Positions 26,226 through 34,847 of a stretch of 64,000 bases of DNA are shown piece after piece; position 1 is the first letter of the stretch, and the number at the start of each line of letters is the position of its first letter. Both the position numbers and the translations under genes were made by a program. Under the pieces are notes generated by a model. It saw nothing but the letters and a program-made list of their open reading frames with translations. It was not told the DNA's origin and did not search any database. This stretch comes from Enterobacter ludwigii (GTDB lineage Bacteria > Pseudomonadota > Gammaproteobacteria > Enterobacterales > Enterobacteriaceae), in contig NZ_CP017279.1 in NCBI RefSeq assembly GCF_001750725.1, forward strand, positions 1,736,001-1,800,000, written 5' to 3'.

Positions 26226-26542
26226 GTTTTGACTCTAACTGGATTGTAATACGTAAAATCCACTGAACGGATCATTTTGCGCAAAAACGCCCGCCTCTGG
26301 TTGGATGAGGCGAACCGGCCGCGCAGTGATATAATGGACGGATGCCTGTGAAACAGCGTGATAACGCGTTCGCTCACCCCCTTCCATGACATACGTCACG
26401 GGCTTTGAGCGAGAAATAGCGTGACACAAGGGGCACTGAGTGGGATATAATTTCGAGCTAATTTCGAATGACTTTGAAATGTTGCCTGTAATGCTATGAT
26501 TTACAAGGCAAAAAATAAGCAATGAATATAAGGATTAAATCT
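26226..26542 (+). promoter_or_regulatory. fabI upstream region with extended -10 promoter
   Basis: This 317-base spacer holds no supported gene. Near its end lies TGCTATGAT, an extended -10 (TATGAT at 26495-26500), with weak -35 candidates around 26472-26479. The predicted start lies about 35 bases before the fabI ATG. Just upstream the octamer AATTTCGA occurs twice, 11 bp apart (26449-26456 and 26460-26467), and could be a regulator site. E. coli has ycjD between sapF and fabI; no trace of it was seen. Confidence 0.5.
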
Positions 26543-27331
26543 ATGGGTTTTCTTTCCGGTAAGCGCATTCTGGTAACTGGCGTTGCCAGCAAACTGTCCA
26601 TCGCATACGGCATCGCACAGGCTATGCATCGCGAAGGCGCTGAGCTGGCGTTCACCTACCAGAACGACAAGCTGAAAGGCCGTGTAGAAGAGTTTGCCGC
26701 GCAGCTGGGTTCCAGCCTTGTTCTGGAATGCGACGTTGCACAAGACGAAAGCATCGATGGCATGTTTGCTGAACTGGCAAAAGCATGGCCGAAATTCGAC
26801 GGTTTCGTTCACTCCATCGGCTTCGCTCCTGGCGATCAGCTGGACGGCGACTACGTGAACGCGGTAACCCGTGATGGCTTCAAAATCGCTCACGACATCA
26901 GCTCCTACAGCTTCGTGGCAATGGCTAAATCTTGCCGTGCGATGTTGAACCCAGGCGCAGCTCTGCTGACCCTGTCCTATCTGGGCGCAGAACGTGCTAT
27001 CCCTAACTACAACGTTATGGGTCTGGCTAAAGCGTCTCTGGAAGCAAACGTCCGCTACATGGCGAACGCGATGGGTCCAGAAGGTGTGCGTGTGAACGCT
27101 ATCTCCGCGGGTCCAATCCGTACCCTGGCAGCTTCCGGTATCAAAGATTTCCGTAAAATGCTGGCGCACTGCGAAGCGGTTACGCCGATTCGTCGTACCG
27201 TTACCATTGAAGATGTGGGTAACTCTGCAGCGTTCCTGTGCTCTGACCTTTCCGCGGGTATCTCCGGCGAAGTGGTTCACGTTGACGGCGGCTTCAACAT
27301 CGCTGCAATGAACGAGCTGGAAATTAAATAA
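26543..27331 (+). CDS. fabI: Enoyl-[acyl-carrier-protein] reductase (NADH)
   Basis: A 262-residue SDR-superfamily enzyme that reduces trans-2-enoyl-ACP in the last step of each fatty-acid elongation cycle; it is the triclosan target. Visible features are the N-terminal [20 protein letters not shown], the catalytic Tyr/Lys in [20 protein letters not shown] and [21 protein letters not shown] precedes the ATG by 8 bases. An upstream in-frame ATG at 26522 would add seven residues and is unlikely. FabI also affects the fatty-acid pool from which the DSF synthase RpfF, encoded 6 kb downstream, would draw. Confidence 0.97.
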
Positions 27332-28562: not shown

Positions 28563-30497
28563 ATGTTTCAGGACAACCCGCTGCTAGCGCAGCTTAAACA
28601 GCAACTGCATTCCCAGACGCCGCGTGCAGAAGGGGTCGTAAAAGCCACGGAAAAGGGCTTTGGCTTCCTTGAAGTTGATGCGCAGAAAAGCTACTTCATT
28701 CCGCCACCGCAGATGAAGAAAGTGATGCATGGCGACCGCATTACGGCCGTCATTCATACCGAAAAGGAACGTGAGTCCGCCGAGCCGGAAGAACTGATCG
28801 AACCGTTCCTGACCCGCTTCGTGGGCAAGGTCCAGCGAAAAGACGATCGTCTTTCTATCGTGCCGGATCATCCCCTGCTGAAAGATGCCATTCCTTGCCG
28901 CGCCGCCCGTGGTGTTGAGCATGATTTCAAAGAAGGTGACTGGGCCGTAGCAGAAATGCGCCGTCATCCTCTGAAAGGCGATCGTGGCTTTTATGCTGAA
29001 CTGACCCAGTTCATCACCTTTGGCGACGACCATTTCGTGCCATGGTGGGTGACGCTTGCACGCCATAATCTTGAGAAAGAAGCGCCAGACGGCGTAGCGA
29101 CTGAAATGCAGGACGAAGGCCTGACGCGTCGCGACCTCACTGCCCTGGAGTTTGTCACTATCGACAGCGCCAGCACAGAAGATATGGATGATGCGCTGTA
29201 TGCGGAAGAGAGCGCTGATGGCAAATTGCATTTGACCGTCGCCATTGCCGATCCCACCGCCTGGATCGTTGAAGGCAGCAAGCTGGACGATATGGCAAAA
29301 GTCCGATCGTTCACTAACTACCTGCCGGGCTTCAACATCCCCATGTTGCCGCGCGAACTGTCAGATGACCTCTGCTCACTGCGTCCAAATGAAGTGCGTC
29401 CGGTCCTTGCCTGCCGCATGACCATCGCCGCCGATGGCGCGATCGAAGACGATATTGAATTTTTTGCCGCAACCATCGAATCGAAAGCCAAGCTGGCCTA
29501 CGACAATGTTTCCGACTGGCTTGAGAATACCGGCACCTGGAAACCGGAATCAGACGCGATTGCCGCACAGATCCGCCTGCTGCACCGCATTTGTCTGAAC
29601 CGCGGCGAGTGGCGTAAAACCCATGCGCTGGTCTTTAAGGATCGTCCGGACTATCGCTTTGTCCTGGGTGAAAAAGGTGAAGTGCTGAATATCGTGGCCG
29701 AACCGCGTCGCATTGCGAACCGCATTGTTGAAGAAGCGATGATTTCTGCCAACATTTGTGCCGCTCGCGTCCTGCGTGACAAGCTGGGCTTTGGTATTTA
29801 CAACGTCCACACCGGTTTTGATCCGGCCAATACCGAAGCGCTGGCGGCCCTGCTGAAGAACCACGATGTGCACGTTGACCCTGAAGAAGTGCTGACGCTG
29901 CAGGGCTTCTGTAAGCTGCGCCGCGAGCTGGATGCACAGCCATCCGGTTTCCTCGACAGCCGCATCCGTCGTTTCCAGTCCTTTGCTGAAATCAGCACCG
30001 AGCCGGGTCCACACTTTGGCCTCGGCCTGGAAGCCTACGCGACCTGGACGTCACCTATTCGTAAGTATGGCGACATGGTCAACCACCGTCTGCTGAAGGC
30101 GATCATTAAGGGTGAGTCCATTGCGCGTCCGCAAAATGACACCACCCTGCAGATGGCCGAACGACGTCGCCTGAACCGTATGGCGGAACGTGACGTGGGA
30201 GACTGGCTGTACGCACGCTACCTGCAGGATAAAGCGGGTACAGATACTCGCTTCGCCGCAGAAATCATTGATATCAGCCGGGGCGGTATGCGCGTTCGCC
30301 TGGTGGATAACGGCGCCGTCGCCTTTATCCCTGCCCCGTTCCTGCATGCCGTCCGTGACGAACTGGTCTGCAGTCAGGAGAATGGTACTGTGCAAATCAA
30401 AGGTGAAACAGTTTACAAAGTCACAGACGTGATTGACGTAAACATCGCTGAAGTTCGCATGGAAACCCGCAGCGTTATCGCGCGCCCGGTCGCCTGA
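28563..30497 (+). CDS. rnb: Exoribonuclease II
   Basis: A 644-residue 3'-to-5' exoribonuclease, the same length as E. coli RNase II. Order: cold-shock domains ([20 protein letters not shown]), the RNB catalytic domain with [20 protein letters not shown] (metal-binding Asp cluster) and ADPTAWI, then the S1 domain near the end ([20 protein letters not shown]). It degrades single-stranded mRNA ends. Spacing from yciW is 88 bases. Confidence 0.97.
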
Positions 30498-30509
30498 TAA
30501 CCGCTTAAA

Positions 30510-30550
30510 TTGTCGGCCGTTTCCCTTCGGGAAGCGCCGACAATTTTTCT
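30510..30550 (+). terminator. Intrinsic terminator after rnb
   Basis: A long hairpin has outer arms TTGTCGG/CCGACAA and an inner GC-rich stem closed by a short loop. It is followed by TTTTTCTTTT. It starts 13 bases after the rnb stop. The rest of the 324-base rnb-rpfR gap (to 30821) is A/T-rich and holds a bulged inverted repeat (30734-30785) before the rpfR ribosome site but no gene. Confidence 0.85.
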
Positions 30551-30821
30551 TTTGAACCCCCGCCGCAAAATCATTATTTTTTCGTACTATTTTCAGCGTC
30601 TTCCCGCCCAAAATCGCCATAATTATCTACAGTAAAAGAGTGCCGTTATATTCGGTTACGTGAATTTTTATACAATAAATAGCCTTTTTCGCCAGACGCG
30701 TTTTTTATAAGAAAACCGGGAAAAAACACGACGTTCATTTTGGGGTTGCCGCTGTTTCACAACGGAAAAGTCGACGGCAAATGAATAATTTGTGCGCTAA
30801 TGAGCAGCTGCGGGAGAAAAC

Positions 30822-32813
30822 ATGATGGACGATCTGGAGCAGAATTTGCTGTTTCGTTACATGGGTACGCATAGCCCCTGGTGGCGAATGACAGCTGACA
30901 GCAATGCTCTGCACCTTGCCGCCAGCGAAAATGCCGATGTGACTGAGGTGGTGGCGCTGGATGATGAACAAGCCGAACTCATCCGCCAGTTAACCGTCAT
31001 TACCTCCAGCATCTCCATGACGCTCTCGTTGTACGGCGAAGATGTCCCGGTTCATCTTGTGGGGCGCAAAATAACCCGAAATGAATGGGCCGGCACCGCG
31101 TCAGCGTGGAACGATACGCCCTCCGTGGCTCGTGACCTGGCTCAGGGCCTCTCTTTTGCTGAACAGGTTGTCTCTGAAGCCAACTCCGTCATCGTTATTC
31201 TCGATCATAACGGCAATATTCAGCGTTTTAACCGGCTGAGTGAAGAATATACCGGTCTGAAAGAACAAGAAGTTATTGGCCAGAACGTGTTCAAGCTGTT
31301 TATGAGCCGGAGCGAAGCGGCAGCTTCAAAGCGCAATATCACCGGTTTTTTTCGCAACGGCAGCTCCTACGAGGTCGAACGCTGGATCAAAACGCGTAAA
31401 GGGCAACGGCTGTTTTTGTTCAGAAACAAGTTTGTTCATAGCGGCAGCGGCAAAAATGAAATTTTCCTTATCTGTTCCGGCACCGACATTACCGAGGAGC
31501 GCCGCGCCCAGGAGCGTCTGCGCGTGCTGGCCAATACCGACACCATTACCGGTTTACCAAACCGTAATGCGATCCACGAACTGATTTCTGATGCCATCGC
31601 CAGCCGCGGTGAAACGCAGGTAGGCGTGGTGTATCTCGACCTGGATAACTTTAAAAAGGTCAACGATGCCTATGGGCATATGTTTGGCGACCAGCTATTG
31701 CAGGCTGTCGCTCTGGCCATTCTGAGCTGTCTGGATGACGGTCAGGTGCTGGCGCGACTTGGCGGCGATGAGTTTATTGTCATGGCCACAGATACCTCTC
31801 AGGGCTCTCTGGAAGCCATGGCGTCGCGGATCTTAACCCGTCTGCGCCAGCCGTTCAGAATCGGCCTGATAGAAATTTACACCGGTTGCTCGCTCGGTAT
31901 CGCCCTCGCCCCCCAGCACGGTAACGACAGGGAAAGCGTCATCCGTAATGCCGATACCGCCATGTACACGGCGAAAGAGAATGGCCGGGGCAAGTTCTGC
32001 GTCTTCTCACCTGAGATGAACCAGCGCGTATTTGAATATCTCTGGCTGGATACCAACCTGCGTAAAGCGCTGGATAACGATCAGCTTCTGATTCATTACC
32101 AGCCTAAAATTACCTGGCGGGGTGAAATCCGAAGTCTTGAAGCGCTGGTGCGCTGGCAGTCGCCGGAACGCGGTTTAATCCCTCCGCTGGAGTTTATCTC
32201 TTATGCCGAGGAGTCGGGATTGATTGTCCCGCTGGGCCGCTGGGTGATGCTTGATGTGGTGCGCCAGGTGGCTAAATGGCGCGATAAGGGGATTAATCTG
32301 CGCGTGGCGGTCAACGTCTCCGCACGTCAGCTGGCCGACCAGACCATTTTCAGCGATTTAAAGCAGGCGCTGAAGGATTTGGATTTTGAATACTGCCCTA
32401 TCGACGTTGAACTCACGGAAAGCTGCCTTATCGAAAACGAAGAGCTGGCGCTCTCTGTGATCCAGCAGTTCAGCAAGCTTGGCGCGCAAATTCATCTTGA
32501 TGATTTCGGCACCGGCTACTCGTCTCTGTCGCAGCTGGCGCGGTTCCCTATCGACGCCATTAAACTCGATCAATCCTTCGTCAGGGGTATTCATAAACAA
32601 TCGATCTCCCAGTCTCTGGTGCGGGCCATCGTCGCGGTGGCACAGGCATTAAACCTGCAGGTCATTGCTGAAGGGGTCGAGAGCGCGAAAGAAGACGCCT
32701 TTCTGACCAAGAACGGCGTCAACGAACGGCAGGGCTTTCTCTTCGCTAAGCCGATGCCCGCTGCCGCATTCGAGCGATGGCTAAAGCGATATCAGTCGCG
32801 AAAACAACGTTAA
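30822..32813 (+). CDS. pdeR: RpfR/PdeR: DSF-sensing PAS-GGDEF-EAL cyclic di-GMP phosphodiesterase
   Basis: A 663-residue protein homologous to E. coli YciR/Gmr/PdeR and to Cronobacter RpfR. Order: an N-terminal region of about 100 residues corresponding to the FI (RpfF-interaction) domain of RpfR, a PAS domain (about 110-230, [20 protein letters not shown]), a GGDEF domain with intact LARLGGDEF (about 310), and an EAL domain with [15 protein letters not shown] and [13 protein letters not shown]. Both cyclase-like and phosphodiesterase motifs look intact. In Cronobacter and Burkholderia the PAS domain binds cis-2 fatty-acid DSF signals and raises c-di-GMP hydrolysis. The downstream convergent gene is rpfF; the two stop codons share the palindrome TTAA. 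Confidence 0.95.
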
Positions 32814-33676
32814 CTGGCTTTGCGTAATGCCCCATGATGGCGGTTTTGCAGCATCACCAGACGCTCCATATAGGCGATATCTTTTGGCTCGAGGCAGAAC
32901 GCCGCATCAACCCAGTCTTCCGTGATATCCATCAGTTCACTGCGCGGCAGTTGCAGTACCCGGGTTCGGGCGCGCAACATCGCCCTTACCCCGTTCAGCT
33001 TCGGCCGCAGCGTGTCGATGAAGGTTCTGACGGAGACGTAGCTCTGCCCGGGCTCAAACAGCACATCGACCAATCCATGTTGTTCGTACCATTCTGCCGT
33101 ATGCGACTCCCCCTTATAGATGAGTTCTTCCGCCAGTTTCATCCCTGCCCGACGTGCGACCAGCGAATATGCCCCCATGCCCGGGAACAGGTTGAAGGCA
33201 ATTTCCGGGAAGCCCAGACGGGCATCGCGCTGAGAGAGAACAAAATGGTGTGCCAGCGCAGCCTCAAACCCACCGCCTAGCGCGCTGCCTTCAACCATCG
33301 CCAGAGAGACCGCGCCCGTATCAAACCCCCGAGACGCTGCGTGGACACAGTCGACGCAGGCACGTGCATACGCGCGTAACGCTTCACGCCGTCCATTTTG
33401 AATGCACTCTACGAAGAACTGTAAATCGCCTCCCGCGTTATACATTTCAGGAACCAGTGACCCGGTTACCCAAAAATCGACCAGATACCCGGACTGGCGA
33501 ACCAGCCAGGAGAGGTTCATGATCTCCTCAATTAACGCATGATTAAAACAAGGACGAGGTTGCGCCCGCAGCATCATCCAGATGGTGTGCCGCTCTTCCT
33601 CGTAGTAGGCTGACAACTGTGTGAAACGTTCAGTATCGGTAAACAGGGTGCAGGTAGGCTGGTTGATAACTGTCAT
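32810..33676 (-). CDS. rpfF: RpfF-type DSF synthase (crotonase family)
   Basis: A 288-residue crotonase-fold enzyme closely resembling Xanthomonas and Cronobacter RpfF. Family hallmarks are [24 protein letters not shown] with Glu138, [16 protein letters not shown] with Glu158, and the C-terminal ITEDWVDAA. Glu138 and Glu158 correspond to the two catalytic glutamates of RpfF (141 and 161 in Xanthomonas). Such enzymes dehydrate 3-hydroxyacyl-ACP and release cis-2-unsaturated fatty acids of the DSF family. AGGAAT lies 8 bases before the ATG. It converges on rpfR with a 4-bp overlap. E. coli K-12 keeps yciR but lacks this gene. Confidence 0.93.
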
Positions 33677-33868
33677 AGTCTAATTCCTCACAGAAAAAGC
33701 GCCTTGCGCGCAGTTTTAGACTAATCCACTCATTAAGCCCGCAGCATGTGGGGGAATAAATTTATCACTTTCATTTATGTGATTTAGTTATTGCATTTTT
33801 TCCCTTCTCTTTTGATCCCATTTTCTGCATCATTGAAAATATTACCTTTTCGCACCTGGGGTGAGATT

Positions 33869-34051
33869 ATGTCTACTATTGATGCACAAGCTGTAGCACA
33901 ACGTATTGATACCGTGCTGGATATCCTGGTGGCAGGCGATTATCACTCGGCGATCCGTAATCTGGAGATCCTGAAGTCTGAACTTCTTGCTCAGAAGGGT
34001 GCTGAAAACGCGCCTGAGAACGGACAGCCAAAAGCGCCGTGGGAAGTTTGA
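33869..34051 (+). CDS. yciZ: YciZ, small conserved protein (UPF0509)
   Basis: A 60-residue protein of unknown function with the conserved core [20 protein letters not shown] and the C-terminal tail KAPWEV. The start at 33869 follows GGGGTGA. An in-frame ATG at 33791 would add 26 hydrophobic residues and is not conserved. It lies between rpfF and yciT, as E. coli yciZ lies between yciR and yciT. Confidence 0.88.
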
Positions 34052-34094
34052 TCCTGCTGTTTTCGAACCTGTTTCGCTTTATTAATTGGATGCT

Positions 34095-34847
34095 ATGAAT
34101 TCCCGACAACAAATCATTTTGCAGATGGTCATTGACCAGGGACGCGTCAGCGTAGTCGATCTCGCTAAAACCACCGGCGTTTCAGAAGTCACCATCCGCC
34201 AGGATCTTAACCTGCTGGAGAAACAGAGCTACCTGCGTCGTGCGCATGGATATGCGGTCCCGCTCGATAGCGAGGATGTTGAGACGCGCATGATGAACAA
34301 CTACGCCCTGAAGCGTGAGCTGGCGGAGTTTGCCGCGTCTTTAGTTAACAATGGCGAGACGGTGTTTATCGAAAACGGCAGTAGCAATGCCTTACTGGCG
34401 CGCACGCTTGCCGAACAGAAAGACGTTACTATCATCACGGTCAGTAGCTATATCGCGCATCTGCTCAAAGAGACCCGCTGCGAGGTGATCCTGCTGGGCG
34501 GCATTTACCAGAAAAAAAGCGAAAGCATGGTTGGCCCCCTGACCCGCCAGTATGTTCAGCAGGTCCATTTCAGTAAGGCCTTTATTGGTATTGATGGCTG
34601 GCAGCCAGAAACGGGCTTCACCGGCCGCGATATGATGCGTTCTGATGTGGTGAATGCGGTGCTGGAAAAAGAGTGTGAGGCCATTGTGCTGACTGATAGC
34701 TCAAAATTTGGCGCCGTTCACCCTTATACCATGGGGCCAGTCTCTCGCTTTAGCCGCGTAATTACCGACGAACGTTTGAGCGATGAGCATCGTATTAAAC
34801 TGGAAGATGACGGTCTTATCGTCAATATTATTAAAAAGTCGTCCTGA
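34095..34847 (+). CDS. yciT: DeoR-family transcriptional regulator YciT
   Basis: A 250-residue regulator. The N-terminal DeoR HTH is [20 protein letters not shown] followed by [14 protein letters not shown]. The C-terminal DeoRC sugar-phosphate-sensing domain has [26 protein letters not shown] and KAFIGIDGW. In E. coli it is a global osmolarity-linked regulator beside osmB. The start MNSRQQIIL is conserved; an ATG three codons upstream is not used. Confidence 0.93.

Follow-up and report, generated by a model that had tools for sequence, protein, structure and literature searches.

An rpfF/rpfR gene pair of Enterobacter ludwigii, and altered ligand-pocket and FI-domain residues in RpfR proteins of genomes without rpfF

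Results

The rpfR/rpfF Locus

The window analyzed here, a stretch of 64,000 nucleotides from Enterobacter ludwigii (NZ_CP017279.1, positions 1,736,001 to 1,800,000), contains an rpfR and an rpfF gene that converge on a common TTAA (Table 1). Both frames are open over the extents listed and share their stop codons, as described in an earlier note made from the sequence alone. Around the pair, the gene order with rnb, yciZ, and yciT matches that of E. coli K-12. The earlier note had also drawn attention to fabI, which indeed lies nearby (26522–27331, its end about 5.5 kb from rpfF); the significance attached to this is not supported, since fabI occupies the same place in K-12, where the locus is devoid of rpfF, and the proximity is thus synteny shared with E. 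coli.

Table 1. Features of the rpfR/rpfF locus, with positions counted from the first nucleotide of the window.
Feature	Position	Strand	Basis
rpfR (pdeR/yciR/gmr orthologue), 663 aa	30822–32813	+	NCBIfam NF007474, 1292.9 bits, cut-off 782
FI (RpfF-interaction) domain, RpfR aa 1–95	30822–31106	+	phmmer to 6dga_A/6dgn RpfR 1–95, E 1.5e-32
DSF-binding PAS domain, RpfR aa 115–224	31164–31493	+	phmmer to 6dgg_A/6dgj RpfR, E 1.8e-61; Pfam PAS_9
Codons of BDSF-contact residues S169, N172, Y183, R187, N202	inside 31326–31427	+	sequence; residue positions from the available text of PMC6361424
GGDEF domain, RpfR aa 237–390, GGDEF motif aa 314	31530–31991	+	Pfam PF00990, 6.1e-45
EAL domain, RpfR aa 412–644, EAL motif aa 440	32055–32753	+	Pfam PF00563, 9.6e-68
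rpfF, DSF synthase-type crotonase, 288 aa	32810–33676	-	PDB 6dgn/5fus, E ~1e-124; NCBIfam NF006452
Catalytic Glu138 codon of rpfF	33263–33265	-	sequence
Catalytic Glu158 codon of rpfF	33203–33205	-	sequence
TTAA, two TAA stops (rpfR, rpfF) overlapping by 4 bases	32810–32813	.	sequence
yciZ, upstream of rpfF, divergent	33869–34051	+	same order in E. coli
rnb (RNase II), upstream of rpfR	28563–30497	+	named by position and synteny; same order in E. coli

The RpfF and RpfR Proteins

RpfF of the window aligns over residues 4–285, thus near full length, to the RpfF of PDB entry 6dgn (E 2e-124), and likewise to 5fus. Its two catalytic glutamates fall into register, Glu138 closing a GGGFE block (134–138) and Glu158 a GFPE block (155–158), and FPGMGAYS occupies residues 164–171, which bears out the earlier assignment of the two glutamates and of the GGGFE and FPGMGAYS blocks. 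The protein scored above the cut-off of NCBIfam family NF006452 (413 versus 177 bits) and below that of the RpfF equivalog NF053515 (181.6 versus 550 bits). The latter model was presumably built on Xanthomonas-type RpfF, and we did not treat its cut-off as decisive, given how much closer our protein is to the solved RpfF of 6dgn/5fus. Phe44 and Phe88 are present as well; according to the available text of PMC6361424, their conformation in the RpfF–FI complex would clash with a bound fatty acid. By homology, we infer an RpfF-type DSF synthase that would produce a cis-2 fatty acid.

RpfR shows the complete FI-PAS-GGDEF-EAL layout given in the earlier note, with PAS, GGDEF, and EAL detected by Pfam and the FI domain by the match of residues 1–95 to the 6dga/6dgn chain. 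The PAS pocket is intact in that S169, N172, Y183, R187, and N202, the five ligand contacts listed in the accessible part of Waldron 2019 (PMC6361424), are all present; the same source reports that B. cenocepacia alanine mutants equivalent to S169, N172, R187, and N202 raise c-di-GMP. RpfR of the window would accordingly, going by its homologues, be a BDSF-responsive phosphodiesterase.

Distribution of rpfF and rpfR

In a sample of 246 genomes of the family (rpfF counted at E up to 1e-40, rpfR at E up to 1e-190), rpfF was found in 55 and rpfR in 79, and in all 55 rpfF genomes rpfR was convergent with rpfF at a distance of at most 1.7 kb. A second sample of 391 genomes, partly the same ones, gave 102 with rpfF and 143 with rpfR. 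Each of the 117 paired loci retrieved showed the convergent orientation. One genome of the second sample carries a second RpfF homologue (G301:C7:1005864-1006712), 79% identical to the first and about 280 kb away from the pair.

Within Enterobacter, rpfF at 87% identity or more is present in 20 of 24 genomes. Genome G018 (locus L139) retains an rpfF scar of two short pieces with best hits 89–91% identical, G002 shows neither rpfF nor a remnant, and in G015, an assembly of 86% completeness, about 150 bp of contig without rpfF separate the rpfR stop from yciZ. Across the 25 orphan loci examined, 24 plus that of E. coli, the remnant of L139 was the only one. A distant blastn search, with a reach of about 65–70% DNA identity, returned no rpfF match in E. 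coli among 20,395 records of 5,426 genomes. Within this family the pair occupies a single locus, from which rpfF was lost repeatedly, about a dozen times as judged from the 12 orphan clades of the gene trees described below.

Some loci depart from this layout in other ways. In the Enterobacter genome G007 (L298–L300) both genes are gone and 130 bp of rpfR are left between rnb and yciZ. The rpfR frame is interrupted next to an open rpfF in L281 (G001), L282 (G013), and L162 (G263), be it through assembly error or in reality. Finally, rpfF appears in two pieces at G356:C1:1433590-1434449, and at G415:C1:2631299-2632081 the rpfF match covers residues 1–261 with one TGA reported.

The BDSF Pocket in Paired and Orphan Receptors

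For the comparison of receptors with and without a synthase partner we aligned 156 RpfR proteins; 115 of them have rpfF close by and 41 come from genomes without rpfF, the orphan status resting on rpfF searches of the sampled genomes in 40 cases and on blastn in the case of E. coli. Four of 160 RpfR loci (G239, G001, G013, G015) were dropped as partial or interrupted; the partial RpfR hits of G100 and G067 and the full RpfR of three rpfF-carrying Enterobacter genomes (G020, G021, G022) were also left out. G356 and G415, with the rpfF irregularities noted above, were counted as paired, and both read SNYRN at the five pocket positions (169, 172, 183, 187, 202).

SNYRN was found in all 115 paired proteins, none of which has lost the pocket, versus 19 of 41 orphans. 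The 22 changed orphans read SYYRN (8), ANYRN (7), SNYLN (3), or, once each, SKYRN, SHYRN, SNWRN, and SDFRN; when Y183 is set aside and the count is restricted to the four experimentally tested positions, 21 of 41 still differ. SNYRN was also present in 79 of 80 named loci, namely those with RpfR within reach, which derive partly from the same genomes. Pocket variation does occur with a synthase present, as seen in the Y183F exchange of the rpfF carrier B. cenocepacia.

On the whole-protein tree as well as on the GGDEF-EAL tree, the orphans form 12 clades, eight of which contain a pocket change. Parsimony required a minimum of 12 pocket events, 10 to 12 of them on orphan branches (Sankoff range); a tie decides between a split of 12 and 0 and one of 10 and 2, the latter assigning the change S169A and the return to Ser to paired branches. 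Orphan branches make up 21.5% of the GGDEF-EAL tree, 29.3% of the whole-protein tree, and 42% of the PAS-fitted length. Given independent events and a correct gene tree, which these tests assume, the binomial probability of placing 10 of 12 events on orphan branches is 9e-6, 2e-4, and 0.004 for the three lengths in this order, and that of placing 12 of 12 is 1e-8, 4e-7, and 3e-5. Within the PAS domain, clade-level changes were also more frequent in the five pocket columns than in the 54 others (12 over 5 columns versus 29 over 54; one-sided p = 0.006).

Among the 19 orphans with an intact pocket are whole sampled genera (g40 and g111). Of six orphans from genera with paired members as well (G018, G002, G305, G409, G120, G392), four have SNYRN and two are changed. 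As four of these six are intact and no paired protein has lost its pocket, the data fit an order of events in which rpfF was lost first and the pocket later. In the whole-protein tree G392 clusters with another orphan genus rather than with its own, so the loss of its synthase may be older.

Constraint across the RpfR Domains

Departures of orphans from columns invariant in the 115 paired proteins were unevenly spread over the domains, with 101 of 615 cells differing in FI (16.4%) and 100 of 2419 in PAS (4.1%), compared with 17 of 2132 in GGDEF (0.8%) and 26 of 3075 in EAL (0.85%). In a leave-one-out control with the first 55 paired proteins, each compared at the columns invariant in the other 54, the respective values were 0.34%, 0.06%, 0.34%, and 0.28%. 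At FI position 29, every one of the 115 paired proteins has Ala, whereas 36 of 41 orphans have another residue; 16 of the 41 have a change at D26 and 21 at S27, both of which are invariant in the paired set. The motif D26-S27-x-A29 is thus invariant in the sampled paired receptors, and the B. cenocepacia record (L297) likewise has D, S, and A at these positions.

Relative to EAL, orphan branches over the whole tree were about 3-fold longer for FI and PAS and 1.5-fold longer for GGDEF. Within a core clade of 92 proteins, the orphan excess over EAL amounted to 1.7-fold for FI and PAS and 1.1-fold for GGDEF, and the terminal-branch tests gave p = 0.011 for PAS and a non-significant p = 0.09 for FI. 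The core-clade value of 1.7-fold is the fairer estimate of the two.

E. coli PdeR

According to the earlier note, E. coli K-12 retains the receptor alone, a statement that needs qualification. K-12 has no rpfF at the locus, and its PdeR carries Leu at position 187, one of the BDSF contacts. Leu187 was found in all seven E. coli genomes read, K-12 included, and the 101-base stretch around codon 187 is at least 95% identical in 5,371 matched E. coli records, which falls short of establishing Leu in all of them. PdeR of strain 2014C-3338, to which the K-12 protein is 99% identical, shares 42 of 95 FI residues and 91 of 110 PAS residues with RpfR of the window. On this sequence evidence, E. coli PdeR has probably ceased to act as an ordinary DSF receptor. 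Among the RpfR and PdeR papers listed, no title or opening abstract reported pocket loss, although such a report may exist in print.

In E. coli the slot of rpfF is filled by the small protein YmiD (L215:4240-4368); the corresponding site in the window is 33771–33830 on the minus strand. We considered YmiD as an eroded rpfF and rejected it: blast against 74 rpfF queries gave no similarity, and NCBIfam finds no family. Its start lies inside a DNA block upstream of yciZ that is retained at 92 of the 106 loci having a yciZ match (39 orphan, 53 paired), and the ORF behind this conserved start varies from 5 to at least 73 codons. YmiD therefore does not represent a remnant of rpfF, nor is it a leader peptide under conservation. 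Among the papers listed under the name YmiD, none was on the topic by title.

Discussion

By homology with characterized systems, RpfF of the window would dehydrate and hydrolyze acyl-ACP to yield a cis-2 fatty acid, and the FI domain of RpfR would bind and restrain the synthase; the fatty acid, upon occupying the PAS pocket of RpfR, would stimulate the EAL phosphodiesterase and thereby lower c-di-GMP. After loss of rpfF, the DSF pocket and the FI domain of RpfR would be freed from constraint, and the GGDEF and EAL domains much less so. Taken together, we consider it likely that the window carries an intact pair of the Cronobacter/Burkholderia type and that rpfF was lost repeatedly in the family, followed by relaxation of pocket and FI domain in the orphans. 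Synthase loss thus seems to release the ligand and partner surfaces of the receptor. Many orphans, E. coli PdeR with its R187L exchange included, are probably no longer DSF sensors; here, the pattern is observed and the function is deduced from it. Somewhat bolder is the notion, which we still favor, that repeated synthase loss in the Enterobacteriaceae leaves orphan receptors in which the ligand pocket and the surface for RpfF become free to change. PdeR would then be an ex-receptor in which R187L removed a contact to the BDSF carboxylate, and D26-S27-x-A29 of the FI domain would mark the partner interface.

The pocket changes might instead reflect retuning, with the PAS domain of orphans not decaying but sensing a different ligand, for which saturated C12:0 or a fatty acid of foreign origin would be examples. 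This would be in line with 37 of 59 paired-invariant PAS columns remaining unchanged in orphans and with the occurrence of N172Y in two genera, where all four members sampled from each genus have it. In the available text of Waldron 2019 (PMC6361424), the E. coli homologue (Gmr) is called highly conserved and a response to C12:0 is speculated upon. The substitutions are diverse, however (N172 to K, H, Y, or D; Y183 to W or F; S169 to A; R187 to L), and therefore look more like loss than like convergence on one new ligand. We regard retuning as possible, yet as the less probable explanation of the pattern when compared with relaxation after synthase loss.

A housekeeping role for the crotonase as an acyl-ACP thioesterase/dehydratase, with a pair that does not signal in Enterobacter, appears improbable. 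RpfF enzymes do cleave many acyl-ACPs, as stated in the available part of PMC6361424, and among the matches listed no Enterobacter signal appeared in titles or opening abstracts; against this, RpfF is associated with RpfR, and the invariance of the receptor pocket is tied to the presence of rpfF.

Another issue is the junction of the two genes, for which the earlier note had proposed antisense coupling via the shared stop codons, with no terminator in between. The latter point was confirmed: a scan of 30500–34200 revealed no terminator-like site at the rpfR/rpfF junction, the five sites found in this interval comparing with 4.0 ± 2.2 in shuffles and the nearest one lying at 32440–32455 on the minus strand. 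Folding of the junction was unremarkable (z = -1.23 and +1.08). In 116 of the 117 paired loci (G001 was left out of the gap counts for its interrupted rpfR frame), the 4-base overlap occurs in 51, a gap of 0–100 bp in 57, and one of more than 100 bp in eight, six of which have 1.4–6.3 kb between rpfR and rpfF. With gaps varying in this way and inserts occurring, the shared stop represents just one of several arrangements. Coupling of rpfR and rpfF by antisense transcription from overlapping 3' ends, which would draw on the overlap in the 51 loci and on the terminator-free junction, was rejected as very unlikely, since 65 of 116 loci lack the overlap and one of these even holds a fimbrial gene set.

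The inserts themselves are varied. In L237:2816-8421 (G287), a chaperone-usher fimbrial set (Pfam Fimbrial, PapD, Usher) splits rpfR and rpfF, which are 6.3 kb apart; L143:2324-3676 and L149:2357-3523 are further cases. By Pfam, one insert holds a LysR-family and a carboxymuconolactone decarboxylase-family gene, and another a WaaY-family gene plus a short ORF.

Returning to the relaxation of orphan receptors, the dozen or so synthase losses make the comparison a natural experiment, which supports the crystallographic pocket and the FI domain from sequence alone. The pocket states suggest a division of the orphans into those that could still eavesdrop on DSF of foreign origin and those that could not, and the comparison provides a concrete reason to ask if E. 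coli PdeR is able to bind DSF in the first place. As for the pair of the window, it extends a known system by a further genome.

Convergent rpfF/rpfR genes, the FI domain, inhibition of RpfF by FI, and Enterobacter homologues are described in the available portions of PMC6361424, PMC4698668, and PMC4504480, and the pair of the window is accordingly another member of a published system, convergent layout and occurrence in Enterobacter included; the gene pair is ordinary for its group, and the comparative result on orphans is the new part. The closest likeness is to Cronobacter turicensis, whose RpfF and RpfR are likewise encoded by two convergent genes with the same domains and pocket residues at the same numbers (PMC4698668, PMC6361424). 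No architectural difference from the pair of the window was found, and none of the passages retrieved from these papers dealt with a stop overlap. In Burkholderia cenocepacia, RpfF is BCAM0581 and RpfR BCAM0580 (names from the available part of PMC4504480). The genes of the B. cenocepacia record (L297) are also convergent, and the proteins are 63.5% (RpfF) and 55.8% (RpfR) identical to those of the window; F44, F88, E138, and E158 of RpfF are kept, whereas RpfR has Phe in place of Tyr at position 183 despite the presence of rpfF. E. coli PdeR (YciR/Gmr) is the orthologue at the same locus, rnb-pdeR-yciZ-yciT, and differs from RpfR of the window in having no rpfF partner and in R187L. More distant is the protein of PDB entries 3m6m and 3m6n (E 1e-45), which we take to be Xanthomonas RpfF. 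This synthase is related to that of the window but works with RpfC/RpfG, a receptor type unlike RpfR, according to the available text of PMC4504480.
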